A stretch of DNA of 29,642 bases from positions 1 through 29,642 of the IMG/VR virus record IMGVR_UViG_3300042870_000839, one strand, 5' to 3'. Shown here piece by piece: positions 5,321-29,100 of this stretch. The notes beneath the pieces were generated by a model that saw only the letters and a list, made by a program, of their open reading frames with translations, was not told the DNA's origin and ran no database searches. Each line of letters opens with the position of its first letter. The first letter of the stretch is position 1. This stretch comes from a virus. The position numbers were made by a program, and so were the translations under genes.

Positions 5321-5550
5321 GTGCCAAGAAAAAAGATGCTACTAAGATAAACACCTTGGAAGAAATTCATGGAGCCAGTCTCATGAAGCGCAGTCTAATG
5401 TATTCAGGATGGGCTCGACCTGTTCCGGCCTCGATCGTTATATCAATGCAGGGCACGATGATTTTAAGATACATTCGCAAAGGTTTGTTTCTCTACGAGC
5501 CAAAGCCAAAGGTTGATGTTTTCGCTAAAAAAAGAAAGGAGGGAGCATGA
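5317..5550 (+). CDS. Small basic protein, unknown (77 aa)
   Basis: ATG overlaps the previous TGA and is preceded by AGAAAGGAGG at 5303-5312. The product is basic, with a central beta-like segment (PVPASIVISMQGTMILRYIR) and a Lys-rich tail KKRKEGA encoded by the next ribosome-site cassette. No family recognised. Position in a tightly coupled series supports a real gene. Confidence 0.6.
   Translation: MSAKKKDATKINTLEEIHGASLMKRSLMYSGWARPVPASIVISMQGTMILRYIRKGLFLYEPKPKVDVFAKKRKEGA
5533..5550 (+). promoter_or_regulatory. Repeated Shine-Dalgarno/start junction cassette, copy 3
   Basis: AGAAAGGAGGGAGCATGA joins the 77-aa gene to the MarR-like gene and encodes the tail RKEGA. Confidence 0.6.
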
Positions 5551-5813
5551 AAACTCTCGATGTGGTCATCAGTCTCGGCATAACTGCAACACAAGCGCAA
5601 GCGTTGGTCAACCTGCGTGAAGCAAATCTTAGCATGACAAGTATCTCGTTGATTTGTGGCGTATCGACGGCAGCAGTCACCGGCATGGTGGATCGATTGG
5701 TGAAAAAAGGATTAGTGCAGCGTGTAGATAGCAAGTTTGATCGCAGAATTATCACAGTAGAACTCACCGACAAGGGGCGCGAGTATGCTGATAAGATTGG
5801 GGGTGACGCGTGA
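5547..5813 (+). CDS. MarR-like winged-helix DNA-binding protein (88 aa)
   Basis: The product is close to a bare MarR DNA-binding domain: helices around TQAQALVNLREANLSMTSIS, the recognition helix STAAVTGMVDRLVKKGLV (about residues 43-60), and the wing DRRIITVELTDKGREYA. MarR proteins usually have extra dimerisation helices on both sides; here they are reduced or missing, so it may dimerise differently or act as an accessory factor. It has ATGA overlap and an AGAAAGGAGG site at 5533-5542. The target is unknown. Its place before the resolvase suggests an early regulator. Confidence 0.75.
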   Translation: MKTLDVVISLGITATQAQALVNLREANLSMTSISLICGVSTAAVTGMVDRLVKKGLVQRVDSKFDRRIITVELTDKGREYADKIGGDA

Positions 5814-8447: not shown

Positions 8448-9053
8448 ATGAAGAAAATATTATATTTTGATACGGAAACCACGGGTTTTCCTAAGAGTTC
8501 AACCGCTCCTTTGGAGGAACAACCGCACGTCGTGCAACTCGCCTGCACGCTGGTGTGCGCGGCGACGCGAAAGGAAATGGCTTCGCTTAGCGTGATTGTT
8601 GATTGTCCTATCGAGGAAATCCCTTCTGGTGCATCGGACATTCACGGCATCACGCACGATGTCATGCGCGCGTTCGGCATCTCACCCAGGGCGGCACTGA
8701 GCGCGTTTCATCAGTTCACCAAGCAGGCCGATGTGATCGTGGCTCACAACATCGCCTTCGACCTCAAGTTGCTGGACTACCTCTACCAGCGCGAGAACGT
8801 GCAGAATCCGCTCTGGACCATGGAGCAGTTTTGCACGATGCAGGCGACAACGAACCTATGCAAACTCCCGGCTGCGAACGGACGTGGCGGCTACAAGTGG
8901 CCCAAGCTCACCGAGGCTTACATGCACTTCTTTGGTGAAACGCTGGACGGCGCTCACGATGCGCTTGTGGACGTGCGCGGGTGTCAGCGTGTGCATTTGC
9001 ACTTGCTGGGTGATGTGAAGGCCGTGGAAGTGAAGGAGGAAGATGTGGTATGA
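8448..9053 (+). CDS. DnaQ-like DEDDh 3'-5' exonuclease (201 aa)
   Basis: The N-terminus [10 protein letters not shown] gives Asp8 and Glu10 (Exo I), [11 protein letters not shown] gives Asp105 (Exo II), and HDALVDVRG gives His170 and Asp175 (Exo III), so all DEDDh catalytic residues are present. DGIHGIT-type residues appear as [10 protein letters not shown]. Stand-alone proteins of this kind proofread or trim DNA. It follows the loader gene and has an A-rich AACAAAA leader at 8431-8437. Its last codons encode the AAGGAGG site of the next gene, giving an acidic KEEDVV tail. Confidence 0.88.
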
Positions 9054-9628
9054 AAATCACAGCAATTACAAAATACAAGCACGGTGAACTTCACGCTGCG
9101 CTAACCCGTCTTGGATGGTCGATCGCTGAACTCGCACGCCGATGCAAAGCGACTCATAGCAATGTGTGCGCAGTTATAAACCTTAAACTACGGCCATCGC
9201 CAAAATTGGCAAACAAAATTCAGATGGCTCTCGGAGAAGAAGGAATATTTTTAGACGTGCTGGAACAATGGCCCGAAGCCTTCAAGATCAGAAGGCGCTT
9301 CGAGAGGATAGAGACAATGGACATACCAATGGAACGTCTGATTGGCTGTCGTGAGGCGATGATGGTTCTCGCGCCAGAACAGAATAAAGAAGAGGATTGG
9401 TCTGTTTCTATAAATGGGATTTTGGAAACGCTGACAGAAAGACAAAGGCTGGTTATCGTTGAAAGGTTTTACAACTCAAATAGTTTAGAGGGTGTGGCTA
9501 ATAAGCTGGGGTTAACGTGTGAGCGAGTTCGCCAAATTGAGGCTAAAGCATTGCGTAAATTACGCCACCCTGAACGGATATGCGATCTTGAGCAAATTGC
9601 TGAAGAGCATTTTTTTACAATACGATAA
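9050..9628 (+). CDS. XRE-type HTH fused to sigma-70 region 4: probable late regulator (192 aa)
   Basis: Residues about 18-62 form a Cro/CI-like HTH ([20 protein letters not shown]). After a linker, residues about 127-172 match sigma-70 region 4: [14 protein letters not shown], then [20 protein letters not shown], the -35 recognition helix-turn-helix. No sigma region 2 is visible, so it is unlikely to work as a full sigma factor. It might act like small region-4 phage activators, redirecting host RNA polymerase. Its place at the end of the early genes and just before the terminase fits a switch to late transcription. Overlap is ATGA upstream and TAATG downstream. Confidence 0.75.
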
Positions 9629-10098
9629 TGACAGAAAATCACAATAAATTCCTAAATCATTTAGATCAAAGTGCTGACGCGGTTTGGCTTGTTGCGAGAT
9701 TGTTAAATGATCGTGGTTATAGCGTTACTGTTCCAAATTCAAGCAAGGCTGCACAGCATAGTGATTGGAAAAATCACGCGGATAATGGTGATCTTTTTAT
9801 TAACCAGAGAGTAGAAGTGAAGAAACTCAGCGCAGAATTCACAAGCGCTAAAGATTGGCCGTTTGGATCCAAGTTTATCGTATGTGCCAAGCACGCATTT
9901 GACAAAGCGAGGCCAAAACCGTTTGCGTATGTGATACTTTCAAAGTCTGCCAATAATGCCGCTGTTGTTTTCGCATCAACGTCAAATAATTGGATAACGG
10001 AAGCAAGGAAAGATAGTAGATATGAAAACATTTCTCAGGAGTTTTATTTTTGTCCGATTGAAAAGGTTCGATTTTTTGCAATGCCAAGATCACAATAA
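9628..10098 (+). CDS. Small PD-(D/E)XK-like nuclease (156 aa)
   Basis: GDLFINQRVEVKKLS places Asp55, Glu63 and Lys65 in the D...ExK arrangement of the restriction-endonuclease fold, preceded by a helix with LVARLLNDRGYSV as in the usual first helix and strand. The later strand FAYVILSK fits the core sheet. Substrate and role are unknown; DNA processing at packaging or against competing DNA are both possible. It sits between the regulator and the terminase genes and is lower in GC than its neighbours, with longer AT-rich stretches, which may indicate separate acquisition. Confidence 0.6.
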   Translation: MTENHNKFLNHLDQSADAVWLVARLLNDRGYSVTVPNSSKAAQHSDWKNHADNGDLFINQRVEVKKLSAEFTSAKDWPFGSKFIVCAKHAFDKARPKPFAYVILSKSANNAAVVFASTSNNWITEARKDSRYENISQEFYFCPIEKVRFFAMPRSQ

Positions 10099-10227
10099 AA
10101 TTGTTTTTGTCACGATTCATCGGGCTCATTTGTGACTAAAAGCACCATTCCTGCGCCCATTACACAACTCCACTACCTGCGCTAGAATCCCCACCGAACG
10201 CCGACTGGTGCGCAACCGTCTAAGATC
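10099..10227. other. Intergenic region before the terminase genes
   Basis: This 129-base gap is one of the few real breaks in the gene train. It holds a short dyad (GTCAC near 10111 and GTGAC near 10133) and, at 10147-10161, the 15-base element shared with the gap before the giant gene. I see no clear GC-rich hairpin with a T-run, so no intrinsic terminator is called. Confidence 0.5.
10147..10161 (+). promoter_or_regulatory. Shared 15-bp element, copy 1 (candidate late promoter or activator site)
   Basis: ATTCCTGCGCCCATT recurs exactly at 12971-12985. Similarity continues for about ten bases (ACACAACTC here, CACAAACTC there). Both copies lie in non-coding gaps on the same strand upstream of packaging or virion genes. 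The HTH/sigma-region-4 protein encoded just upstream is a natural candidate to bind it. Confidence 0.5.
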
Positions 10228-10713
10228 ATGAAAACTACCGAAAAGAAAAAACTGAATGCCCGGCAAGAACGATTCTGTGAATTTGTCGCCGCTGGGGAAA
10301 CGCAGGAGGCTGCTCACAAAAAAGCTGGTTACAAGTGCAGCGCGAACAGCGCGCGTGCCGCGGCCTCGATCATGGCTAATCGTCCTGAAATTAAAGCTCG
10401 TATCTCTGAGCTCAAGCAAAAGCAGCCTGATCTACTGGAGGCGCGATTGACGAAGGAGGAAAAGCTGAAAGTGCTGGCTCGTCTCATTCGCACGCCTGAT
10501 AATTCCGAAGTGGTGAAAGTGGCCGACAAGCTTCGCGCCATCGAACTGCATAGCAAGCTCATGGGTCACTTCGAGCCGGACCGTATGGAATTGGAGCTTG
10601 GCAACACGACGCTGCAAACGATCAAGGAGCGTGCGAAAGAAGTCGGTTACACGCTATCCATGCGTTACGCTCAACCTTCCAGCATGCCGCCAAGAAGCAA
10701 TCACTTGTCATGA
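10228..10713 (+). CDS. terS: Terminase small subunit (161 aa)
   Basis: The N-terminus LNARQERFCEFVAAGETQEA, then HKKAGYKCSANSARAAASIM and NRPEIKARISELK, is the classical Terminase_2 pattern: an HTH DNA-binding region followed by helices. Small terminase subunits recognise the packaging site and stimulate the large subunit. Length is normal. The large subunit follows one gene later, so a packaging operon is clear. The start is ATG 10228, 66 bases after the shared 15-base element; there is no strong Shine-Dalgarno site. Confidence 0.88.
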   Translation: MKTTEKKKLNARQERFCEFVAAGETQEAAHKKAGYKCSANSARAAASIMANRPEIKARISELKQKQPDLLEARLTKEEKLKVLARLIRTPDNSEVVKVADKLRAIELHSKLMGHFEPDRMELELGNTTLQTIKERAKEVGYTLSMRYAQPSSMPPRSNHLS

Positions 10714-11138
10714 GCGGCGGGACACTAGATTTTATCGATGATGCCGTAGATGATCTGACGGCCAACGGCCAATCTTACTTACTTTTTGTCATTCGCGGAG
10801 AAAAGACGCTCACTGATACTTTTCTCAACGATGAAGACAGGAAAACTCTTCAAATGTGGATCGATACAGGACACTGGAATCGACTTCTGCAAATGAGACT
10901 GGATAAACACAAACCAAATACAACCATGAGTGAAGAAACACATATACCGCCGCATCAAAAGCGCGTGATCGACGAAAAAACTGATTTGGATGATAAAATT
11001 GAAAAACTAGGCATATTTATTAAAGATAGTCCTATTTTCAAAAGTCTTGACGAAGACGAGCGTTGTCGCTTGCAACGTCAATGGATGATCATGGTAGAAT
11101 ACTCAAGTATTCTAGGTGAACGAATAGCGGCCTTCTGA
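10710..11138 (+). CDS. crAss001_48-like phage protein with N-terminal extension (142 aa)
   Basis: Residues about 75-142 (PPHQKRVIDEKTDLDDKIEK, then FKSLDEDERCRLQRQW and YSSILGERIAAF) match the small helical crAss001_48-related family common in tailed phages, whose function is unknown. The first 70 residues (DFIDDAVDDLTANGQSYLLF and IDTGHWNRLLQMRLDKHKP) are an extra region I do not recognise; an internal ATG near 10926 would give the typical short form. The gene overlaps terS as ATGA and ends one base before terL. The location between the terminase subunits is unusual and may only reflect operon insertion. Confidence 0.7.
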   Translation: MSGGTLDFIDDAVDDLTANGQSYLLFVIRGEKTLTDTFLNDEDRKTLQMWIDTGHWNRLLQMRLDKHKPNTTMSEETHIPPHQKRVIDEKTDLDDKIEKLGIFIKDSPIFKSLDEDERCRLQRQWMIMVEYSSILGERIAAF

Positions 11139-11139
11139 A

Positions 11140-12969
11140 ATGAGCCTAGAACCGGAGATTGTAACTCGCTTCCGTGATTACCTCGACGCATCAAGTGAAG
11201 AGGAATTACAGGCGCGCGCTTACAATTCTCCGGCTGTTCATTTTTCCATCTTCATGGAAATCAAGAACAAGGAAGGCGCATGGGTAAGGCCGACGGCAAA
11301 CGTGTTGCAACTGCGCATTAGTTCCACTATCGAGACGTTGCGCGATCTTTGTCCGGGAATAAAGATTCGCATCGTCGCCGTGAAGCCTCGTCGTGCTGGT
11401 CTGTCCACGTTCTCGCTGTTCTGCGGTTACCACGAGGCCATGCGCAGGCCGATCGAGGGCATCACGATTGCTGACTGCGCTAAAAACTCAGCTATGCTTG
11501 TTGAAAAGCTGGGTGAATACTCGAATCACGATACCTTCCCGTGGCAGAATCCATTGGTGCGCAATCCAGAAGGATATTTCCAATGGCAGAATGGTAGCAC
11601 CTGGACCATTGACACAGCGGAAAATCCTGATGCTGGTGTGGGCGGTACTCGTCAGTTCGGGCATTTCTCTGAGTGCTCTAAGTTTCCACAAACGAAAGTC
11701 AAGAACGACAAGAAAACGATGACGGCCGCTCTGCCGTCGCTCTCTGGCAATGATACGATCGGCATTGCGGAAAGCACGCCCGAAGGTGCGAGTGGATGGT
11801 TTTACGATACCTTTGGCGAAGCGATGACGCTTGATGAGTTCATGGCGCGCTACAATGCCGGCTATCGACCAGAACAGCAATGGATCAAGGTATTCGCGGC
11901 GTGGTGGGAGTTCAGCGACTACGCGCGGCAACAGCCTGTTTCCGATGTAGAGAAAGCGGAGATTGATCGATCGCTATCGAAGATCGAGCAGGAAGAAATC
12001 GACAAGTATGGACTCACCTACGAGCAACTAGCATGGCGCCGTGATACGCTGGCCGCTGAGTGTAACGGCGATGAGCGTATTTTCGGCTATTACTATCCGT
12101 CTGATCCGATTACGTGTTGGCTATCGTCGGGCTCGCCGCGTTTTGATCAAAACATCTTGCTCACAATGAAGCAACGGGCCAAGAACATCACTCCCGAATC
12201 TGGCTTCTTGGTGCGTCAAGACAATGGCCGCGTGTCATTCTCCGGCACGCATGACGGCAGCGGTGACATTCTCATTTGGGAGCAGCCGCGCGAGGGCATG
12301 GCGTATATCGTCTGCGGTGATCCTGCGACGGGTGCCAGCCAAACGGTCGGTGCCGATCCCGATGCGAACTCGGTCCAGGTGTGGCGGCAAAAGTTCTACG
12401 ATCCTGATCTTGGTCGGGCTCGCCCTGCTAAGCTCGTGGCTCGTGTTCGTCCACCGTGCTACGATGAAGATGATGAAGTGGGCGGTCACATGCACCGATT
12501 GAGCAAGTATTACGGTGGCTGTATTGTCGGCCTAGAGGTCAATCAAGGTCTGCAAGTTCTCCGTGTGCTCAAAGACTCGAGCACGCCGCTCTACAAGCGC
12601 ATCGTGATGAGTCACAAGACCAACACGAAGGAAGAGCAATACGGATTCAAGTTGAACGATCAGAATCAACGGCGCATGATCATTGCTGGGCTGGCCGCGG
12701 CGATTCGCAATGAAGAAATCGAAGTGGATTGTCCGCACTGGATCAACGAGGCAATCAAGTTCGTTGTCTCACCGAACGGAAAAGCAGAAGCGGCACCGGG
12801 CGAACATGACGATGATGTGATGTGCGGCGGCATGGCGTGGGAAATCCTGCCAAGTGCTACGGTGTTCGCGCGTAAAGTGGTCCGCAATGTGGATCCTCCC
12901 GACATGGTGAAACCCGGAAGCAAGAAGCAAGGTTGGCGCGTGGTGAATAATGTGAAGCGTGGTTACTAA
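11140..12969 (+). CDS. terL: Terminase large subunit (609 aa)
   Basis: The ATPase half has a Walker A variant KPRRAGLST (about residues 82-90) and an acidic Walker B-like position at Glu178 in GHFSECSKF. The C-terminal nuclease half has Asp394 in CGDPATG, Glu466 in GLEVN and an Asp triplet at 557-559 in HDDDVMCGG, the RNase-H-like metal site of large terminases. It translocates DNA into the prohead and cuts it. Length is normal to slightly long. What follows is not a portal gene but the giant ORF at 13018. Confidence 0.92.
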   Translation: MSLEPEIVTRFRDYLDASSEEELQARAYNSPAVHFSIFMEIKNKEGAWVRPTANVLQLRISSTIETLRDLCPGIKIRIVAVKPRRAGLSTFSLFCGYHEAMRRPIEGITIADCAKNSAMLVEKLGEYSNHDTFPWQNPLVRNPEGYFQWQNGSTWTIDTAENPDAGVGGTRQFGHFSECSKFPQTKVKNDKKTMTAALPSLSGNDTIGIAESTPEGASGWFYDTFGEAMTLDEFMARYNAGYRPEQQWIKVFAAWWEFSDYARQQPVSDVEKAEIDRSLSKIEQEEIDKYGLTYEQLAWRRDTLAAECNGDERIFGYYYPSDPITCWLSSGSPRFDQNILLTMKQRAKNITPESGFLVRQDNGRVSFSGTHDGSGDILIWEQPREGMAYIVCGDPATGASQTVGADPDANSVQVWRQKFYDPDLGRARPAKLVARVRPPCYDEDDEVGGHMHRLSKYYGGCIVGLEVNQGLQVLRVLKDSSTPLYKRIVMSHKTNTKEEQYGFKLNDQNQRRMIIAGLAAAIRNEEIEVDCPHWINEAIKFVVSPNGKAEAAPGEHDDDVMCGGMAWEILPSATVFARKVVRNVDPPDMVKPGSKKQGWRVVNNVKRGY

Positions 12970-12970
12970 A

Positions 12971-12985
12971 ATTCCTGCGCCCATT
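12971..12985 (+). promoter_or_regulatory. Shared 15-bp element, copy 2
   Basis: This copy lies between the terL stop (12967-12969) and the giant gene's ATG, 32 bases before that start. It is identical to the copy at 10147-10161. Its position suggests that the giant gene has its own transcription start or control site rather than relying only on read-through from terL. Confidence 0.5.
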
Positions 12986-13017
12986 TTCACAAACTCGGCG
13001 GCTGGCTACTGTGCGGC

Positions 13018-14110
13018 ATGTCCCGATTCACCAATCCTGACGAGAACGAAGTTCAGTCTTATCTCCGCAAAGTTCAAGCCGGTCAAGGTGGGCAAAGCCC
13101 GAAAGACCAAGCATTAGCACGTAGCAAAAATCCAATGGCGCGTCGTGTAGGCGAGCAGAACATGGCGCAACGTGACAGTGAGAACCTCCGCGCAACCAAC
13201 GAGCAAGCCAAGGTCCAGCAAGACCAACAAAACGACGCGATCAAAGCGCAGGCCGATGCCGTGAAAGCTCAGGAAACGGCAGCGGAAGATCAACGCAAGC
13301 AAAACGTGCGTGCTCATGCTGCTAACAATGGCGTTGTCGAAACTGATATTGCCACTGGTCATCGTGACATTGCTACTCATGCCGATGGCGCGCCCAAGTA
13401 TGAAGCGGGGCCGATTGGTGACCCTGTGAAAGTGGGTGAAGCACGCACGGCTCTGCCCGATGCGCAAGGACAAGCGCAACGCGTGCCCGACATGTCGAGT
13501 ATGCTCGGCGGTGGTGGTGGCGGCGCCATCGGTGCGTCTGGTGCTTCAAGTGCCGCGGTATTTGCTCAATCGGTGCGCGACGATCGCGGACAAACAAGCC
13601 TCGTAACGCCCAATAGCGACACCGATCAGAAAACGGGTGCTATCACTACGTCGAAAATCAATCCTGTGACTGGTCGCACGGAAAAAAATCTCATTGGCCG
13701 GGATCAAGACATTGCAGCAAAAGCCGCATGGCAAAAAGACCTAGAAGAGCGTTCTAAGCTCGTGGAGTTTGACAAAGCAGGCATCGAAGGTGCTCGGCTG
13801 CGCTTCAATCCACAATGGGAACCGGCACATAAAGCCGTGGAAGCTGCGCAGAAAGCTTTCGATGATCTAGGACCAGCGGTCACAGCAAAGGGCAATGCCT
13901 TCGTGCGGACATCGGACAAAGGAAAGGAAACTCTCGCCACTCCCTCCGAGTATGAAACCGATAAGCGCCTGCGCGCTGAGGCGCAAACAGCACTGGAGAA
14001 CGCCAAGAAAGTGCATGAACCGCTCGCGCAACAAAATACTGTCATCGCTGAACGTGAGCAGGCAATCGCTGTGCAACGCCAAGAGCTCGCGGAGGAAAAG
14101 GCTGCGATGG
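13018..14110 (+). other. Giant protein: N-terminal Q/A/K-rich coiled-coil region
   Basis: Residues about 40-110 are rich in Gln, Ala, Lys and Glu with heptad-like spacing. A Gly run at about 162-180 (LGGGGGGAIGASGASS) interrupts, then a second long charged helix spans about 234-365. No enzyme motif is seen. It may be a structural or packaging segment that anchors the protein in the capsid. Confidence 0.5.
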
Positions 14111-17100
14111 AAGCAGGCCTGCCGATGGGTTACAATCACTTGGCCGCTGCGATCGCAAAGCACAACGGTGCTATCGAAGCGAATGACGCTGATGCAGCAC
14201 AAGCGGAAATTGCACAGAAATCCACAACTCCCGAAGGTCAACCGAACATAGCAGTGCCAGTAACCGACATCAACGCGCAAGGCAAGCGTGCGCTCGGTGG
14301 TATGGCTGACCTTCCCGACGTAGTGGGTGAAGCATGGGGCGGAGGTAAAGAAACGGCCTTCTATCGTGGCAATCAGCGTGTGGCGATCATGCGTCCGACT
14401 GACGGTGCTCAAGCTCTGTTTCTCAACGATGCTGAACCAGTAGCAAAGAATGATTGGGATATCGTCAAAGCGCAAGCTGGCAAGCCTGGCTCGATGCCGT
14501 TGTATGTGCGAGAAAATCCGAACCGCAAGGCCATTCCCGTAGAAGCAAAGTGGGTAGCTGACAGCATGGCTACGCTGCAAGCATTAAACGCCAATCCTGA
14601 TGCACCTCCTACACTCGCGCAAACTGACAAGCTCATCACCGACTTAGGTTTGCAACCAGAAGCGATCAAGCAGAAAGTTTTTAATGGTGAAATCAGTGTC
14701 AACACTGGCGAAAAGCTACTCAAGGATTTATACAACGATACTCTCGAAGTCGTGGATCCGAACGATGAAGGCGTATTCCAACAATGGGTCACTGCCGATC
14801 CTAAGCGCGCGGAAAAATGGAAAGAAGCCACCGAGGGCGTGGGCTATAGCTTTTCCAAGCAAAACACCATCAAGCAAGATTACCTTGCAGAATGGTATGC
14901 TCTGAACAAGGGTAAGCCGGGTGTGCGTCGTTCCGATGTGCTGGCTATGCACGCTCTCGATATGGGAGACAAGCATGGTGCGCTATCGAAGGCGAACATT
15001 GTCAGTAAAGCCGGTGCCATGGGACGCAGTGTGCGCGATGACGTGGCTGGATCAATGACTGGTCTGGCCGTTGGTGCGCTGACTACATTAGGAGCTGGTG
15101 AAATGGCGATTTTCGGCGTTGACGGTGCGAAAAAAGAATTCGATGAGGGCATGCGCCTGCGCAATCGCGATTTCGCATCATGGGCAAATACATTCGGGCG
15201 CAATACCGTAGCTTGGAATACCAAAGCAGGCATGAAAGCGCACAGTCAATTCGACATCAGCGCAGGATTGCTAAAGAGTGCGATCGACGATGCCGAAGAT
15301 CATCCCGGCGACTCTACTTATTCCGATTTGGTGGTGAAGCGCGAGAAAGAGATGCGTGCCGCGGCTCTGACGATGCACAATCTTTCGCCCGATGAAGAAT
15401 GGCCGATCACTGCCGACAATCTGGACCCGGACAAGGATGAAGCGCTCGGCATGGCACTGGCAAAATACAAAGCCACTGCGGATCCGCGCATGTTCGCGCT
15501 CTACAAAGATCGTTTGCTTCAAGGTAACGGCCGGCGCCAATATTCCCTCGAACTGGAAAAGAAAATCGGACAGCAAGAAAGCGGATTCTTTGCGTCGGCC
15601 AATCATGCGATGTATGCAGGCTGGCAAGAACTCGGTAGTGAATTGGTAGCCGATTTAGCTGTGCTCGCTACTGCCGGTGCATCCAAGTATTTACAAGTCG
15701 CTGGGAAAGCTGCGCGCGGCATGTCTTTAGCTGGCGATGCTGCTAAGGTGGGCAAGGCTGCTCGTCTTGGTAAAACGATCGATGCGGGGATGGAAGCACT
15801 TGCCAAGTTTGGCAAGCTCGGTGAAGTCACCGGCACGCTACAAAAACCTCTGACCGGACTGCAAAAAACTACTAACGCGGTTCTTGCTGGCGTCAAAGGT
15901 GCGATTGCCGAAGGTGGCGAGGAAGTAATGGTGGAGCTAGGTGCTGACAATCCTGAGCTCATGCAATCATTCGGCATGGGCATGCTTGGCGCGTTCGGGC
16001 TCGCTCCTGTGCAAGTCGCTGGTGCAGCGATATCGAAGCCAGGCGTTACGGCCGCCACGGAAACCAAGCGCAACGAGAACGCTGCAAAAATCTACAATGA
16101 TCGAATGGCCGGCACTGCTGGCTTTGTGCCGATCACTCCAGAACAAGCGGCCGTAGTGCGATCGCTAGCACCACGGGACACAAAAGCGCTTGTCAATGCG
16201 CTCATCGTTGAAGCTGGCAAGGCTCCTAGTGCTGGCATGACTCCGCAACAATACGGCATGCGTCAGCTTGCAATCCGCAATGAACTGGCCAACATCGCGG
16301 CAATCGAGGAAATGAACGTGCAGGCTGCGCGCGAGATTGATCAAGTCCCCGCTGCGGAACGTCCGTTTGTCACTGGCATGGCGAAAGTCGCCGCTGGCAA
16401 CATGGCACTTCTCACGCGTAACGAGCTCGCTGCAATCCAAGGAGCGAAAACCGAGAACGGTGCCGATTACTTCGCGCAAGTGAGAATGCCAGATGGCAGC
16501 ACGGTGGAAACCGTGACATCTGAAGGCCGTGTTGCTTTCGCCGATCGTTATCCTGCCGTCGGTGAACTCATCCAGACAGATGAAAGCACGCTACTCGCGC
16601 AAAATTATGAGCAGAACCAACAAGGACAATCCGCAAGTCCATCCACGGCGCAACCTGTCGCGGTGGCACAGCCTCAGCGTGATGCTATTCTAGGAAGGCT
16701 CGCGCAGATCGAATCTGAACTCGGTCCCGTTGATTCTGTGGATCAAAATGGCAAAATAATCCAGCCTTTACGCGGAATTACCAATGAAGAGCGTACGTTG
16801 CGTGAACAGTTGGCGCAATTAGACGCTGCGGAGTCGTCCGCTGCATTACAAAATCAAGCGCAAGGCCAAGCTCCGAATGTAGGCGCTGCCAGCATGGACG
16901 CTGGGCTTTACGAGTCGATGCGCGCGGAAAATCCCGGCATGCCATCGATTAAAAGCGTGGTGACTGCGGCTCGCGCTGCTGGTGCGCCAGTGCATCCAAG
17001 CATGGCTGCGATCGCTGATCTTCCTGAGTCGTCGAACAGTGCTCCGAACACCTCCCCCGCCCCGGCTGTTTCATCGGGTAGCGTGAATCTGAAAAATCCC

Positions 17101-20100
17101 GCTCTCGCGCCTGCTTTAGCGGTGGCCGAACGTGTGAAAGCGACAATCGAAAGCCGTGTTCCTGGCCTGCGTGGTCGGGTAGCGATTCAAGAAGAGGGAT
17201 ATGATTCTGGTGGTGTTGCTCAGTCGGTCAATACTGGCGGTCTGATATTGCCACTGGAAGACATTCAGCGGGAAATTGATTTAAGGGGCGGCGATGCTGC
17301 CTCTACTGCGGACATTATCGAGCAACTGGCCTCCCGTCATGAAGTCGTGCATGTGGCTCAATTTGAGCATGTGCGTGCAGAGTGGGAGAAAGCAGGATCG
17401 CAAGGTGATTTTGTTGCGTTCTTCAAATCATTCTACGAGAAAATTGCTAGTGACATACTTACTCCCGAAGCTGAGGCCGTGGCTCGTGACATCTACGGTG
17501 CAGAAGCATGGGATGCGATCGACAATGACGGGTTAAAAGCTGCGGAGTATGTGCGCATGCTGGTGGAATCAAAACTTGATCCATCCAAGCAGGACCAATT
17601 CGGCGAACTGTTCCGTGCCATCAAGGACAAATCTACAATCGCCGATATCATTCGTCGTGCACTGGAAATGCTGCGAACCATGACTCTCTCGCCTGCCGCT
17701 AAGGAGCATGTCGCCAAGATCGAGCAGCTTTACAAAGAACTGACCACGGAAAGCGCAACCTCGGCAACGAAAACGGACGGTTTACGCGTCATCAACAATG
17801 GCAATCAATCGCAAATTGTGAACGGTGACACCGTGTTGTGGCAGGGCCCCGCCGATCAAGCTGATGCAGAACTGCAAAGCCTGAACGATCAAGCTTCCTC
17901 TTCGCTTCGTGTAGCCGGTCAAGCCATCACTGAAAACTTAGAAAAATTCCCTGCCCTATCAGGAAAATACCGCGCGGAAATCGAAGGAGCCACTGATGAC
18001 ATTTATGACATTCTGGAAACGCTAGCACCGGGCGAACGCATGGCGGCAGCGCAACAAGCCGTCGCCGATCGTATCAACGCCATTGCCGATCGTGAGGCCG
18101 CTCGCACCGGCAAGGATCGTATGGAAGTCATCGAGGGTTTTCGTGCTGTGGCAGGCAAACAGCGTGCGGCCTCCGCTGCTTCTGTGGAGTCGGCCATTGT
18201 CGGCACTGATGCTCCTGTGATTCCTGCAGGTGTTACCGAGAAGCGTGATACTCCCAATGGCGAAATGACCATCGACGTTGTGCAATCTGCCGTCGATCTG
18301 GATCAACTCGTGGGATCCTCTGACCCTCGCTTTCCGGGTGCTGCTTTACAACCTCGCAATCGTTCCGGCCAAGCATCGGCCAACCAGCGCGAGGAAATGG
18401 TGAAAAATATCCGCGATAAGGACGGCCAATACAAGCGATACGTCGAAGGCGCAACGACTGATAGCGGTCGCCTCGTTGTCGCTCCCCTGTTCGGGGCCGA
18501 TGGCAAACACATGACAAATGAAGCTGGCAAGCCATTGTTTTATGTGATTTCTGGCAACGGCCGCCGCAATGCTTTGGAAGAGTCACGCAACCGCAAGGTG
18601 GATTCTCGCTATCAACGTGAAGTTCGGGCGGCGTTATCAGGTGATAACATCGATGTTTCCGGCATGGCTATGCCTGTGCCTGTTTCGGTCTATGTGCCGC
18701 AATCTCCAAAAGATGCCATCGATCTTGCTGAATTTTCAAACCGCGATGCGCAACTTAGCGTTTCCAATACGGAGCAGGCCAATCGTGACGCTGCTAGCAT
18801 CGAGAAAGGAAACCTTCTCAAGTTGTGGGAGCCTGATTCTTCTGGTGATCCCGCGTCCGCATCGAATCGCGATTTCGTGAAAGCGTTCATTCGTGCTACT
18901 GGCGATGAAAGCGTAGTTGATTCAAAAGGCAATCTTACCGATGAAGGATCGCAACGTATCGAGCGCGCCATGGTATCGATGTTGCTCGGGCCCAAAGAAT
19001 TGCAACTGACTGAACTGCTGTTCAATCGCGCAAGCGCGCTTGGCCTTCGCTCTATTCTTAGCGGCGTGGCTACTGAGGCGGGAAATCTTCTCAAGCTTGC
19101 TGCTGCAAAGCCTGATTTCGATCTGACTCCCGCACTGGCCGATGCTCTACGCACTGCGGTGGAAGCGAAAGCCGCGGTAACTTCTGGAACATCTGCCAGC
19201 GTGTCAGAATTCTTCGACCAGGGCGACATGTTCAACACCACGGAAAATACGCCCGAACGTCAACTGGCTCGTGCTATCGTTGAAAGTCGCTCGCGCAAGG
19301 CTATTCGTGATATCCTCGGTGCTTACATCAAGGCCGCAAATGCCGTTGATACTGGCACAATGTCGATGTTCGACGATGGCGAGACTACGCGCGAGGATCT
19401 GATTCTCAAAGCACTGGAAGCACGCCCGATCGAGCAAGTGATTGCCGAAGTCGCGGCAGAGTTTGGGCCAAATGCGGACCTTCCCGCCAAGCTGCGCGTG
19501 ATCGCTCCGGGCGTGAAGAAAATGGATGCCATGCAGCGTCGTGAATTATCGAACGCGATCGGCGCCGAAGCTGACCGGCTGCGCATGGGTGTAATTTCCG
19601 CTCCCGAGTATCAACGTCTCAATCCTGATGCGCTCACGCCTCGCGCTGCGTTCTTCCAGCGGATTCTTGACAGTCACACTGCCGATACCATTCGTGGAGG
19701 GTTTGAAAAGCTGCTCACGCCTTCTGCGCAAGCTGTGCTGGGTGCTTCTGCTACTGTTGATGCTACTCTTCCTTCTGAGTTTGTTCTTTTCCCCGCAAGT
19801 TCAGGAACGCTAGGGATTCCTCGTCGTGAAATGCCGCAAATCAAAATGAAGCATCGCGGCGAACTCATGGATTTCCTTACGTCTAAAGGTGTGAAGTTCA
19901 GTGATGAAGATGTTTCTCCTAGCAGCATCAAGCCGACTCAAGCTGAATACAGCCCAATCAAGACAGAACGAGCCAAGGGCATTGATTTTCCACGGCGTTT
20001 GTTTCTCTCTTCTGATAACTTCTTGATCGATGGTCATCACCAATGGCTCGCTCAGATGGATAGGCCAACAGTGGAAGTTACTCGATTTAATGTGCCTGCC

Positions 20101-23100
20101 AAACGTGCTTTACGCATGATGTTTGCCTTTCCGCTGACTGAAAAAGGATCGGGTATGCCGGTGCTAAAATCCAGTCCAACAGAAATTGCACAGCAAAAAT
20201 TTGATGATGTAATCAAGAAGTATTCGGGCCATGCTCCGCAAATTTCCGATGAGGAATTACTATCGCAACTCGTCGCTAAATTTGGGCAACAGCAAGTTGA
20301 TTTAGTAGGAGAACAATTCGATGAGCGCAAAAAATACCTACAACAATTTGCCGATGGTTTTGACTCAAGCGTAAAAGAAATCGCTGAAAAATTCGAGGCT
20401 CGTCCAATGTTAGCACCGCTCAAAGGTCGCAAGCGCAGTGTCGAAAAAGCACTGTATGACTACGATGGCGATGTGATGAGACTCGGTGACGTTATCCGTG
20501 CATCAATCGTAGCTAAGACCATTGCCGATGTTGATACCATTGCTGACGAAATCAATAGTCGATTCAAGGTGATTAAATTCAAGAATCGCTTTAGTCCACC
20601 ATTGCCACAAGGATATTCTGATATGCTATTTCAAGTGGAAGTTGCACCTGGTGTAACTGCTGAGATTCAAGTTCACATCGTGGAGATGATCGAGGCGAAA
20701 GAAAGAGCAGGACACTATCTTTACGAGATGTATAGATCCATCGAAAAGGCAGCAGGAAAAGAAGCCGAACAGCAACGGCAAATGTATATGGACCAGATGC
20801 TAGAGGTTTATACCGCTGCGGCTGGTTTAGCATTAGCGAAAGAAGATGCGCTTGCCATTGCTCGTTCAACCAGTGCGTCGAACTCTGCGGCTGATATTTC
20901 AGCTTCGTATGCTAACTTCCGCGCGGTGTTTTCCGATAGTGGCCGTGGCTCACCTTTGGCGTTGAACAATCCAACTGGAGATTCTAGCGGTGCTTTGGCG
21001 ACTGGAATATCGTCAACATCGAAGAACTTAGTACCAGCGGGAAATTCAGAAGCATTCATTGCGAATAAAAATACACAAAACACAGAACAAACGCAAGAGG
21101 ATTCTTCAACTATTTTACGTGCCTCCGTAACTGCGGATTTATTCGGTGCTATCGAATCACCTAAGCCACAACTCACGCCCGATGACGATCGAGCACGTGC
21201 GGCTCTTGACAGCAATAAGCGTGACAAGTTTGGCGCGATGCGTGGCGAGAAAGGCATGAAAGCAGGATTCCGCTTAGACCTGCCATCATTCAATCGCGGT
21301 GTGCCGGTCGTGTCGATTCACGGAACAGGGATCGGTAAAGTATTAGGTTACGATGTAGCCATTCACTTGAAAAATGCCACATTCCGTTCGCGTGAAAATG
21401 CGGCCTTAACGATACGCGACGGTGGCGCAAAGTCGCCAATGGCTGCTGTAGAAGGTGAAGTTGTCAATGTTGGGCGTAGTATCTCGGCTCCTTCTGATTG
21501 GGTGCCAGTTCGCTACAATCCAAAGGTGCACAGCTATTTCTTTGCTGCCGATGAAATGCCAGTGATTGCAGCCGATGAGGCTATGCAAGTGGGTGCTCGC
21601 GTGTTCGTGCGCAATCCTACCTACGGCAAGCGTGAAGATTTCCTTTTCGCCTCGCCGACACAAATGGACATGTTCGGCGACATCGAAGCCGCGGCCACTG
21701 GTCCGCGCGCCAAAGCGAAAGCCAACGCTCTAGCACTGGCAAAATCTGCGCCAAATGAAAAGGGCAAGGCCTCGATCGTCAATCGCGTCGCCAAGCTCGA
21801 AGGACTACCCGTCAACGATCTGTTTGGTGACATGGGCGTGAAAGCACTTGACGCGAAACCGAAGAAGGTGCAGAGTGCCCCTGATGAATACGATCTATTC
21901 GGCGGATTTGGTGGCACCGGCAATCGCGGCTCTGACGGAACAACAGATAGTCAATCTGGTGGAACAGCGGAAGTTCGGGGCATGGCTGGCAAGTCGGACC
22001 TCTTCAACCTCGGTGGGCGTAACTCGTCAACCGGACTCGGTGGAAGCAAGCGACGCGGCGATGGCAGCGGGAGAAGCGGATTATCAGGCGACGCAAGTGA
22101 TAGCGACGCTAACGGAGGAACAGCAGGAGGCGCTGGTGTTTCAGGCAAGTCTGGAAATCTCGGGGGACGCAATGACGGAACTACGGGATCTGATGCCAGT
22201 GTAATTGAACTGGATGCGAATGCCGTTCCTGATGTCATCCCGACACCGGAGAACGAAGCGGACCGTAACGCTCGAATCAATCCGGGCGAGATTCTTGTGC
22301 CTAAAGGTCAAGGTGGTAAAATCTCAACAAACTTTGAAGTCATCGAACTGCTGCGCATGCTCACCGAGCAAGGGCGCAATCCCACTACTGCGGAGAAGGA
22401 GAAACTGCTTACTTATTCCGGCTGGGGTCACTCGAAGGCCGCGTTTGATGATGCTAAGGCAAAAGCTTATGAAGAGGCTGCTGATGTTTTCAAAACACAA
22501 CTATGGAAGAGCGATAAAGACACGTTCAAGCGCCGATTCAACTACACGGAAACCGATGAACGAGGCAACAAGATTGCCACTGCTTATGACCTTTTCACAT
22601 GGAATGACAAGTGGGGCGAAACGCACCGCGAATTAAAAGAGCGCCTGTCCGATAAGGAATACAACGCCGCCAAGCGGTCTGTATTGAATGCTCACTACAC
22701 AACTCCTGCCATCATCGATGCGCAATGGAAGATGGTGGAGAAACTCGGGTTCAAGGGTGGCCGCGCATTGGAGCCCGGCGCTGGTATCGGTCACTACATC
22801 GGCACGCAACCGAAACACCTGGCTGAAAGAACCGTGTGGAGTGCTGTCGAATTGGATCTGGTCACGTCGCAAATTCTCGCGCTGCTTTATCCACAAACGC
22901 GCGTCAACTCAGTTTCTTCTGGCGCTGGTCGTGAGATTACTGGCCAAGGATTTGAAGAGGCTCTGATTGCGGACAACTCTCAAGACATCGTAATTTCCAA
23001 CGTGCCGTTTCACGAGACAGGTCCATGGCAATCGAAGAAGCAATTCAACACTGAGTTGAACCTGCACAATTACTTCTTTGCTCGTGCCCTGCAGAAAGTC

Positions 23101-26100
23101 AAACCGGGCGGCTTTGTGGTGTTCATCACCTCATCGAGCACGATGGAAAACAACGCTGCGCAGCGCCGATTCTTGGCCGCGCGCGGTGATTTGATTTCAG
23201 CGGTCCGCCTGCCAAATAATGCGTTCAAAGATAATGCCGGCACAGAAGTGACAACTGATATTATCATCTTGCGCAAGCCTGACGGTCGTAAAGTAGAGAC
23301 TCACTCGTGGCTTGGCACTCGTGTTGTTGGCAATGGCAAGGTCACGTTCAAGCGTGGCGACATGACTCCTACGCAATACCTGAAAGGGTTTGACCTAGAA
23401 GGAACGTGGGAAGATGAATCATTGGAAAGCGCGCGCCAAACGTGGTCGGATTTACGTCTTGCTGGGTTGCAAATTGCCGACGGCAAAGAGTTCAAGGACG
23501 AGAAAAAAGCCAACGCCGATGCAACTGCGAAAGCGTGGAAGAAATACGTCGAGACATTCGAGAGTGTGGAAGGCAATGCCATCGGCATGAAGCTCAACGC
23601 AACGGTGCCGATTCGTGTGAATGAATACTTCGCTGCCAATCCGCAAAACGTATTTGGCACGCACGCCTTAGCAGGATCGATGTATAGTCCGAATGAATAC
23701 GCTTTGCTGCCTGATGAAAACGGCGGCACGCTTGAGCAGCGCTTCGCTAAGGTTATCGAGGAACTTCCCGCTGACATCATGGGGCAAGCATCAGTGCTGA
23801 AACTCAACACGGCCCGTGACATCGAGCGCACTGACATTCCTTATTCCTTTGTCGAGCGTGATGGCAAGTTCTGGCAAGTGCAGAAGGATCGACTAGAACC
23901 GGTCGAATGGGATTTCGCGCAAGGCATGGCATTCCGTTCATGGAAAGACGTCAAAGATGCTGCGCGCAACCTCATCGAAGCAGAGCTAGATCCTCAAGCA
24001 GAAGGTCCAGAAATCAGCGCGTTGAGAGAAAAACTCAACGATGTGTATGCCAAGCATACAAGCCGATTCGGTCCAATCTCCAAGACTGGCGCGGGACAAA
24101 AACACGGCCATCTTGTGGAGGATCCAGATTACCCGCTGACGGTAGCTCTCGAAGTGCCGGTGAAATATACCACCACCAAGGGCAAGAGTGCCACTCGCTA
24201 CGATAAGGCTGACATCTTCCGCGTGCGCATGAATAAACCGCTCGCGCCTCCTGCGACGGCTGACAACGTATCTGATGCGCTGCTCGCCTCATTGGTCTGG
24301 ATTGGTTACCCGCACGCCGGTTACATGGCCAAATTGCTCGGCCAAACAGAAGTAAACGTCCGCGCGGAAGCGATCGAATCAGAATTGGTCTTCGAGGACC
24401 CAACAACGGGGACTCTTGTCATCCGTGACGCTTACTTGTCCGGCCATGTGCAAGGCAAACTCGAAGAGGCTCGCGCCGCGGCAGAAGAGGATCCCGCTTA
24501 TCGTCGCAACGTCGCTGCGCTCGAAGCTGCTCTTCCTGAGCGCAAGGGCATCGCGCAAATCGGCGTCTCGATGAACTCCCCTTGGCTACCGCCTGCGGTC
24601 ATGACTGCATTCATGGAGCATATCGGCATCATGGATGGCAAGGTGAGTTATCTGCAAGCTGCTAACATGTGGACCGTTGAAGGCGATGGTGGATCTGATG
24701 TGTTTGTTACGGGTCATGTCAGCACCAAAGAATTGATTGAAAACGCTCTTTCCATGGTTTCGCCTCGTGTGACAGTCACCGAAGGCACCGGAAGGGATCG
24801 TCGTGAAGTGTATAGTCCAGAACAAAGCCAACTGGCAAAATCGAAGGTGGACGCGTTGAAAGTTGAGTTCACCAAATGGGCAAAAACATCGGACGCCAAG
24901 GTGGATGATGTAAGCGTGCAGGATATGATTGTCGAGGCATTCAACGAGAAAGCCAACGGTCACCGCCCTCCCGCCTATTCTGGCGAACACATCACCCTGC
25001 CCGGCGCTTCTGATGAAGTATTCCGCTCATCGATACGTCGCTCCGCGATCGCTCGCATGATCGATCAAGGAAGCGGCATGATTGCGCACGGTGTTGGATT
25101 CGGCAAAACTTACACACTCATTGCCTTAGCGATGGAGTTGAAACGCCTCGGCAAGGCCAATCGTCCGATGATCATCGTCGAGAATGCTACGCTTGGCCAA
25201 TTTGCTGCCAGTTTCCGAACAGCATACCCGAACGCCCGATTACTGGTCGCTGACAAAGCATCGTTTGAGGGCAAGAAGCGCCGACAATTCATCGCACGCA
25301 TCGCCACCGGCGATCACGATTGCATCGTTATGCCGCATTCGAGCTTCAATCTAATCGGCAATCACAAGGACGTAGTGAACAACTATATCAACGAGCAGAT
25401 TGCAGAACTCGAAGCTGCACGTGCCCTCACTGATTCTTCCGATCGTCGTGCGGTTGCCGCATTGGAGAAAGCAAAGATCAATCTTGAGAACTCTCGGAAA
25501 AAGATTCTCGATGCGCTTGCCAGTCGTCAAGACGGTGGGCTCGTGTGGGAAGACTTGGGCGTTGATACGCTGCTTGTCGATGAAGGGCACCGCTACAAAA
25601 ACGCGCCGGTCATCACTCGCATGCAAGGAATGAAAAACCTTCCTACGGGGGCACCTTCGCAACGTGCTGTCGGCATGGTCCTGAAAACTCGGGGCATTCA
25701 AGACAGAATGGCAGGCCGTGGCGTTTATTTTGCTACAGGCACGCCGGTATCGAACAGCATGGCAGAAGCATACATTATGCTGCGCTATACCGATCCTCGC
25801 TTGCTCGCGCAGGCTGGCATCACAAACTTTGATCAGTTCGTGGCAAGCTTTGGTGAAACCGAAGTAAAAGCAGAAGCCAACTGGAAAGGCGCTGTGTCTA
25901 TGGAAACCCGCTTGTCGAAGTTCGTGAACGGCAACGCGCTCATTAACCTGATTCGCTCGTCGTGGGACGTGCAGATGGATCCCGACGTGGCCGGAATCAA
26001 TCGCCCTGACATCAAGGGCGGTGCTTCTGAGCAAGTTATGGTCGCTCCAGGGCCTGCCAATGCGGCTTACAATGATTGGGTAGTGAATACCATCGCGCGC

Positions 26101-29100
26101 CAGTGGGATGACCCGGCATATTGGACAAGCAATTACGCATCGAAGAAAGACGCGTTTGAGGATCATCCTTGGCTCTCGGCGATTCCGATCATGACGATGC
26201 AGGCCGGTATGGCTGCGGCGTTGGATATCCGACTGATCGACCCGAACGCACCAGACTTTGAAAACTCCAAGGTCAACACCGCAGTGCGCAACGTCGTAGA
26301 AAACTACAAAGCGACAACGAAGTATTCAGGCGCGCAAGCGATCTTTTCCGACCTGCGGGAAAGCTTCTCGATTGATCACTTGCTGAACTTTGCCGGCGAT
26401 CCCGGACTATCCGAGCAGGGCATGGAAATCCCCGAACTTGAGCCGATCGTGCTCGGTCCTGATGGCGTCGCGTTGGATCCTCAACCGAAATCGAAGAAGG
26501 TCAAAAAAGCCAAGGAATTCGATCTGTATGCTGACATCAAAAAGAAACTGGTGGCAGAAGGCATTCCCGCAAGTGAAATCGCGTTGATTTCCTCATCGAT
26601 GGCACCGGAAAAGCGCACTGAACTTTTCGACAAAGTGAACAGTGGCGAGGTTCGTGTGGTCATTGGTTCCACTGACCTCATGGGTGTGGGTGTGAATATG
26701 CAAGAGCGCTTGTTTGCACTGCATCACCTCATGCCGCCGCGCGACTTCAAGCCTGCGTCCATGGAGCAGCGCAACGGTCGTATTTTACGCCAAGGAAATA
26801 TTCACTATGAGATGCAAGTCGAGGCCTTTGTCCTGGCTGCGGAAGGAATCACCGGCCAGAAATTCCGCAAGGAAAAGGGCGGTCGCCAAGTGCCTGACAT
26901 CAAGGCCGCGCGTGCTGCGCTGGCAGAAAATTCCGACGCGATGCAACTCGCCGATGAAGCCGCGGCAAATCATCACATCATTCTGCGCGAGTATGCGATG
27001 GAGAAATCCATTGATAGCGCCGTGTATTCGATGATGGCCGCCAAGCAACGCATGGTCGTGCAGTTGCTCATGGGTGAAGTGTCTGATTCTTTCGAGGATC
27101 CAAGCGACGCCATTTCAATGGGCATGGCAGAAATTGCCGCGCGTGCCATCGGCGACCCAACGTTGATTCGCCGCGTGGAGCTCGATCGTGAGATTCGGAA
27201 TCTAAACATGGAGTATTCTCGATTCGAGTCCGACATGGCAAGCGCGCGTGAGCGTGTAAGATATTTGGAAGGATCTCTTTCAAGGAAAGATGCGGATATT
27301 GCCTACGCTCGAAAATACGAAGCGGAATTAGGCAAAATTGGTGCCACCGAAGGGAAAGAAACCGTGTGGGAATTTGGGGGAACGGTCATTGATCGCAACA
27401 AGCCAAAGGATGCAGAAAAAGGATGGAAAGCTCCGCGACTTATCGAGGCCTTGGATCTTTACTTAGCAGAAGAAAGCGCCAAACTAGCGTCTTCTGATCG
27501 CAAGAAAACCAATGTTAATATCAAGGTGGATGGCGTCGGATTCAATGTAGAGATTCACCACATGCTCGGCAATGTTGTGAGCGATCGCAAAAAAACCGAG
27601 GCCGAAAAATACAAGGCGGCCATGGGCGATAAAGCCGGTGACATTGCTCTGAATCCAGAAGAAGAAAAAGCTGCCATTTCCGCCAAGGGAGAGATTAGCT
27701 GGGTGGGCAACAACCGCGCAAGCATTCCGTTTGCCGGTGCTAAGTCCATGAGTAGTGCTGTGAGTGTCTTTGCCAGAAATGCCGATGGCAAGGTGTCACG
27801 CACGGAGGATGATTTCGCCTATCTTGAAAAGCAACTGCCAAGCGCAAGAAACCGAGCCTCGCAAGTCTTCGACAAGCAGGACCTTCTTGATTCTCTGCGC
27901 GCTGAGATGGCGCAAGTGGAAGCTCAACTAGCAGCCAATGCTGCCCCGCGCACGAATCGTCCAGATACACCTCTTGCTGTGGAAGCAAAGGCGAACGCGC
28001 CAGAAATCAAAGCTGGCGATCTTGTTCGCTTCAAGGATAAACCAAACGATGGCACTTATGAGGTTTGGATGGCAGAAAAAGGAATTGTGAAACTTGCTCG
28101 TCAAGGCATGCGCAACTTGTCTTTCAATGTAGAAAATTTTGAGATTGTTGATCCAAGCGAAACGCATGATGCTGTCGCCACGGTAATGTCTTTGCTTCGC
28201 TCGGAGAATCAGCAAAGCTACCCTGGCCGTGGGCTGGAGCCTAGAAATAACATGCTCATGGCTTCACCTTCCGACGTGATGAGCTACATCGAAACGCAGC
28301 AAGATGATGATGCTTATGATGCGTTTAACAATCGCTTTGATGAATACATCTACGAGGATCCTAGCACGTCTAGAAAAACTCCGACGTTTGATCTTCACAA
28401 GCGTGCTGGTCGTGAAGTTCTCACGCCAAAGCAAGCTGCGGAACGATTGGCAGAATGGAAAAACATCGCGAAGAAAGACGGAAAAGAACGCGGGAATTCA
28501 TCTCGCATCGTGCTGTCTTTATTTGATACATCCGGTGTTATCTCTCAACCGTGGCGCGATGCTGGATTTACTGTCTATTCGATGGATATTGATCCAAACT
28601 CCGAAATTGCTTGGAACGTCGATGTGATGGACCTGACTCGCGACTTCCTAGAAGACAACGGCCTCGACATGGTTGACGTTGTTCTCGCTCAACCTCCCTG
28701 CACCGACTTCGCTTCTTCTGGTGCTCGTTGGTTTGCGGAGAAGGATGAAGACGGGCGCACCAAACACAGCGTGGCAATGGTGAAACGCACTCTTGATGTG
28801 ATTGGATTCCTTCGCCCGTCGCTTTATGCTGTCGAAAATCCGATTGGCAGAATTACCAGTCTTACCGGGTTACCAAAACCGCGATTGGTGATGGATCCGT
28901 TCATGTATGGCGAGCCATATACCAAGCGCACTCAGATTTGGGGTATGTTCAACGAGGATCTGCCCGAAGCCGTAGTAGAACCGACCGAGGGAAGTCGTAT
29001 TCATAATCTCCGAGGCGATGTGCCAGAGCAAAAGAAACTGCGCTCGCTCACGCCCGAAGGATTCGCTTACGCGTTTTATGTGGCCAATCGCGACTTAGGC

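Follow-up and report, generated by a model that had tools for sequence, protein, structure and literature searches.

A conserved box at a fixed distance from a −10 hexamer heads packaging and giant polyvalent protein genes in a family of uncultured phages and is probably the upstream half of their promoters

We herein describe a 15-letter element, present twice in the virus contig IMGVR_UViG_3300042870_000839, which probably forms the upstream part of a class of phage-specific promoters, wherein a factor bound to this element (hereafter, the box) would replace the −35 contact. The whole contig of 29,642 bases was analysed and is referred to as the window; its end falls inside a giant gene. In related phages the box lies on the coding strand, at a fixed spacing from a −10 hexamer and in the same gene context, and it varies in a concerted manner within each genome. 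From this pattern we infer where transcription would start, that a factor would read the box and act as an activator, and when the genes behind it would be expressed.

The element, ATTCCTGCGCCCATT, occurs in two exact copies, both on the plus strand, at 10147–10161 and 12971–12985. This agrees with the initial annotation, which had placed one exact 15-bp element on the same strand of two non-coding gaps, and a search of the full record revealed exactly these two copies, with no third one in the 29,642 bases. Copy 1 is located within a 129-bp gap (10099–10227) ahead of terS (10228–10713, +; terminase small subunit, Pfam Terminase_2, phrog_51), while copy 2 is located within a 48-bp gap (12970–13017) between terL (11140–12969, +; terminase large subunit, as indicated by phrog_2 and by the alignment of relatives) and the giant gene (13018–29640, +), which encodes a large polyvalent protein of at least 5541 aa and runs off the record. 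Between terS and terL, at 10710–11138, there is a gene of the crAss001_48 family whose homologues are found elsewhere in the genomes of the relatives. A 15-mer repeat somewhere in 29.6 kb is unremarkable, since 47% of dinucleotide shuffles of that length contain at least one exact repeat of this kind; a 15-base word common to two short gaps is remarkable, because 15 is the length of the longest word that the gaps have in common and the maximum in 3000 shuffles of the two gaps was only 11. A chance repeat without function, to which the presence of exact 15-mer repeats in about half of the shuffled windows might lend some credit, is refuted by the conservation of the element at fixed positions in 14 sequences, and we consider its probability negligible. 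The similarity previously noted downstream of the element is real insofar as CACAA(A)CTC is present, but it lies outside the element and is not kept in the relatives. Rfam models gave no match.

Using the first part of the giant protein as the query, we recovered IMGVR_UViG_3300048583_000219 (G001; 59,637 bp), whose ends overlap by 127 bp and which was therefore taken as circular and complete. In this genome, GCTGCGCCCGTT is present in the gap preceding terS as well as in that preceding the giant gene, and there are exactly six copies of CTGCGCCCGTT, all on the plus strand and all ahead of genes. A scan of viral contigs with a single TerL sequence yielded no match; two-sequence and seven-sequence TerL alignments did find relatives. 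Among them were IMGVR_UViG_3300042325_000473 and a 64,767-bp contig of an Acidobacteriales MAG (G003:C69), both carrying the element ahead of terS as well as ahead of the giant gene, and the seven-sequence profile added G421, G422, G423, G424, L078, L082 and others. When the promoter pattern alone was run against 2.9 million viral contigs, 45 stretches were returned, and all contigs with at least two copies belonged to the same TerL/giant-gene family; the members recovered in this way possess the giant gene and TerL proteins about half to 60% identical. When the ATT variant of the window was used as the pattern, only isolated matches were returned, at chance level. The pattern is specific enough to recover family members that one- and two-sequence protein searches had missed. 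In one relative (G010, IMGVR_UViG_3300025476_000005), roughly 300 additional residues are inserted in frame at the conserved HDDD motif of TerL (about 13732–15525), and they show the hallmarks of an intein, starting with CFIRGTMILTPSG and ending with VHN before C.

The core xTGCGCCCRTT (in one genome, CCCGCCCGT) was collected in 56 copies from 14 related phage sequences; these 56 sites were gathered using the −10 as a filter, while the counts on 54 sites given below were made without it. The consensus of the 56 sites reads C/T/A-TGCGCCC-G-T-T-A, and at sites with a 24-nt spacer CGCCC is invariant, as is the T after the next base. The xTGCGCCCRT core is found in 54 copies on one strand versus 6 on the other, and box, spacing and −10 together are found 45 times on the coding strand and once on the opposite strand, versus 0.3 expected in shuffles. 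At 38 of the 54 plus-strand sites, a YANNNT hexamer begins exactly 24 nt past the box; any other spacer accounts for four sites or fewer. Additionally, there is a tendency toward an extended −10 (G two bases ahead of the hexamer in 29/38 sites, TGN in 17/38). Two conserved blocks, the box and the −10, are separated by 20–21 unconserved bases. The start codon lies 43–46 nt from the start of the box in 37/54 sites and 5–8 nt past the −10 in 41/56; hence, leaderless transcripts are predicted, and at most sites the mRNA would start at or beside the start codon. With the start codon taken as +1, which is an inferred start, xTGCGCCCRTTA would extend from about −44 to −33 and the −10 from −12 to −7.

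Both window copies follow this arrangement. The conserved core of copy 1, CTGCGCCCATT (10151–10161, +), has an orthologous counterpart before terS in nearly all relatives, and that of copy 2 likewise recurs in relatives at the corresponding position ahead of the giant gene; the two would belong to a terS-terL promoter and a giant-gene promoter, respectively. The −10 hexamers, TAGAAT (10183–10188, +) and TACTGT (13007–13012, +), each start 24 nt after CTGCGCCC, and transcription of the giant gene is predicted to begin on the ATG at 13018 or right next to it. With A as their second base and T as their sixth, both hexamers conform to a sigma-70 type −10. No TTGACA-like −35 element was found 16–18 bp before the −10, where the columns are unconserved, and a sigma-70 consensus scan returned a weak match for copy 1 (9/12) and no match for copy 2.

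The terS sites differ from the others in having mostly a TAAAAT-like −10, a spacer of 23–26 and a leader of approximately 30–40 nt. They also share GCTYGMC, a second box situated about 14 nt ahead of the −10, and the leaders between the −10 and terS (10189–10227 in the window, and its counterparts in the relatives) share blocks such as GGTGAAYAACCGTCC or GACGACGCGAACAGC; possibly, these blocks and GCTYGMC constitute a cos/TerS site or serve a second regulator. It could be argued that the box itself is a signal for DNA processing or packaging, for instance a TerS-binding site, rather than part of a promoter: one copy lies just ahead of terS, where cos or pac sites can be located, and the terS leaders are conserved beyond the box. 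However, each genome has five to seven copies, invariably on the coding strand, and these precede unrelated genes at a fixed spacing to the −10 hexamer and to the start codons, which makes this explanation very unlikely. The only clear opposite-strand box promoter found is at 19248 (+) of G012, where it diverges from terS and precedes a predicted leaderless gene.

The genes headed by the box further support a promoter element common to virion genes, a part of the initial annotation that is borne out by conservation, by the fixed spacing to the −10 and by gene context in related phages. The box stands before terS and the giant gene at orthologous places in the relatives, on the coding strand, and six sites are orthologous between G001 and the Acidobacteriales-bin contig. 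These precede terS-terL, the giant polyvalent protein gene, an SU10-like portal gene, a presumed scaffold gene with Phage_capsid_3 behind it, a gene without assigned function (G001 16834) and a DUF1376 replication-type gene. The proposal of a late regulon therefore fits the packaging, giant, portal and capsid genes, but since one copy heads a replication gene in two genomes, the class is not confined to virion genes. Later expression of the class is nonetheless likely, because the early genes of the window start from a sigma-70 type promoter instead, TTGACC-N16-TATTAT (268–295, +). An inverted repeat around this early promoter, CTTTTTCTGTAA/TTACAGAAAAAG (238–249/276–287), is a likely operator, and the promoter is faced by a short, divergently oriented gene (1–192, −), HTH-like in sequence and with no Pfam match, so that positions 1–300 look like a lysis-lysogeny type switch. 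The early region of G001 encodes two likely anti-defence proteins, with matches to the Acb2/Tad1 hairpin domain and to the Lar restriction-alleviation family, respectively.

It was tempting to consider the regulator encoded upstream of copy 1 as the factor that reads the box. This 192-aa protein (9050–9628, +) had been described as an XRE HTH joined to sigma region 4 and encoded just before copy 1, and had been suggested to form a dedicated activator–promoter pair with the element. Sigma-70 region 4 is indeed present (Pfam E 2.9e-17), as is a weak N-terminal HTH (E 0.07); one gene (9628–10098) separates the coding sequence from copy 1. As a dedicated activator or a partial sigma factor of both window promoters, the protein would have in its favour a true region 4, through which sigma contacts the −35 region, as well as a gene located in an early operon just upstream of terS. 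Nevertheless, it is not common to the relatives that carry the same box: an iterated profile search in all six frames detected no homologue in 11 related sequences, and no PF04545 match above the cut-off was found in G001, G007, G010, G012, G421–G424 or the G003:C69 contig. All 36 sigma-4 matches in the MAG are on contigs other than the phage contig. Moreover, complete G001, with six such promoters, and complete G423, with five of a variant form, both lack a sigma-4 protein above the cut-off and provide the strongest evidence on this point. Among the sequences scanned, a sigma-4 protein is found only in the window and without region 2, which does not correspond to a phage sigma-factor regulon. 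The dedicated-activator role is consequently not upheld by the relatives and appears improbable: the promoter class does not depend on the XRE-sigma4 protein, which, judging from sequence comparison, is probably not the box-reading factor. Sub-threshold HTH sequences resembling sigma region 4 were noticed inside the giant proteins of G421 (29242–29328, E 3e-4) and G007 (17493–17591, E 1e-3).

Two further window proteins are low-confidence candidates for regulators: an HTH_17 (excisionase/MerR-type) protein (729–977, +) and a MarR-type winged-helix protein (5547–5813, +). HTH_17-type proteins as well as homologues of the MarR-type protein are also encoded in G001, G003:C69 and G422, and G423 yielded neither. 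As a common regulator, we rejected a 114-aa Cys/His protein (G001 34440–34784), a RecU-like protein and another conserved protein; these are present in seven early regions and absent from the window. Neither protein clusters nor iterated profiles revealed a regulator present in all box genomes.

That all members have no phage regulator in common would also be expected if the box were bound by a transcription factor of the host, or by one of its alternative sigma factors, of which several related phages make use; box variants could then track the host species, and the host could belong to a phylum other than Acidobacteriota. Against this, 296 Acidobacteriota genomes show no enrichment of the promoter pattern (11 occurrences versus 10 in the control, the chance level), within the MAG the pattern is confined to the phage contig, and among viral contigs the many-copy matches are restricted to this TerL/giant-gene family. 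We regard a host factor as less likely than a phage-encoded one. A TerL profile scan of 396 Acidobacteriota genomes returned only the already known MAG; hence, the Acidobacteriales contig may be mis-binned.

Comparison of the boxes themselves revealed concerted variation within genomes. Over ten positions, the mean box distance is 1.9 within a genome versus 3.8 between genomes (permutation p=0.0002). All five G421 sites carry TTGCGCCCGTGTTT, four of the five G422 sites carry TTGCGCCCGTAT, five G423 sites, located at orthologous genes, carry CCCGCCCGT, and both window sites carry the core given above for copy 1. Boxes that are alike within a genome are most simply explained by a sequence-specific factor and its sites changing in step. 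The notion that G423 and G424 use plain TTGAC promoters instead was dropped, as G423 carries its own variant and G424 a TGCGCCC box.

The box promoters would belong to a known kind, the activator-dependent phage promoter, and the box itself appears to be new; our literature search yielded nothing on it. The middle and late promoters of phage Mu, activated by Mor and C, have a −10 without a proper −35, and the Mor site is dyad-symmetric, centred at −43.5 and bound by a dimer (PMC4287176). Similarly, the box is positioned like a regulator site that begins upstream of the −35 region and extends into it, and several late promoters of one phage share it; unlike the Mor site, TGCGCCCGTTA is not palindromic, spans about 11 bp and would be centred near −38. 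No Pfam match to the Mor/C family was obtained among the 24 G001 early proteins scanned. At T4 middle promoters, a MotA box acting with AsiA replaces the −35 while the contact of the host sigma with the −10 is kept (PMC7403470). The box described here likewise is phage-specific, occupies the −35 position (in a numbering that rests on the inferred start) and leaves the −10 in place. It differs from the MotA box in sequence and in position, the MotA box being centred at about −30 and thus nearer the −10. The same 24 G001 early proteins included no member of the MotA or AsiA families, a scan that distant homologues could escape. The middle and late promoters of Thermus phage P23-45 are assigned to an extended −10 class (PMC7403470), and they resemble the box promoters in the extended −10 tendency and in little reliance on a −35 element; in contrast, the box is the most conserved part here, and no such upstream box was noted for P23-45 in that account. 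Promoters of T7-like single-subunit polymerases form a contiguous block of ~20 bp up to the start site, unlike the two separate blocks found here.

Large polyvalent proteins of phages are recognised by Pfam domains such as ddrB-ParB and ART-PolyVal. The giant protein resembles them in its ddrB-like ParB, Eco57I-type methylase and helicase domains, all above their cut-offs, and possibly in an ART-PolyVal domain, matched at 28 bits, under the cut-off of 31. It differs in that its gene directly follows terL, stands behind a box promoter and is predicted to be leaderless. The idea that it is a virion RNA polymerase was discarded, as a single DYDGD is present in the window protein and absent from the others.

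Taken together, our data point to a likely mechanism wherein early genes start from an ordinary TTGAC promoter with operators, and the packaging, giant polyvalent, portal and scaffold/capsid genes would be switched on afterwards. Host RNA polymerase with its main sigma factor would open the −10, and a DNA-binding factor on the box would stand in for the missing −35 contact, presumably as an activator beside sigma region 4, as is the case for Mu Mor/C or T4 MotA. We speculate further, and only tentatively, that a phage transcription factor of a new kind, not related to any known late activator, reads the box; it would replace the −35 contact, change together with its sites in each lineage and give rise to leaderless virion mRNAs, including that of a polyvalent protein of 5,000–6,000 residues. 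The box could serve as a short DNA bait for fishing out its factor, and its concerted variants amount to a natural experiment on joint change in a phage activator and its sites. A leaderless start on a gene for a 6,000-residue protein would, if true, be a useful case for the study of translation. For an uncultured phage family, sequence alone thus gives a regulon and its promoter grammar.
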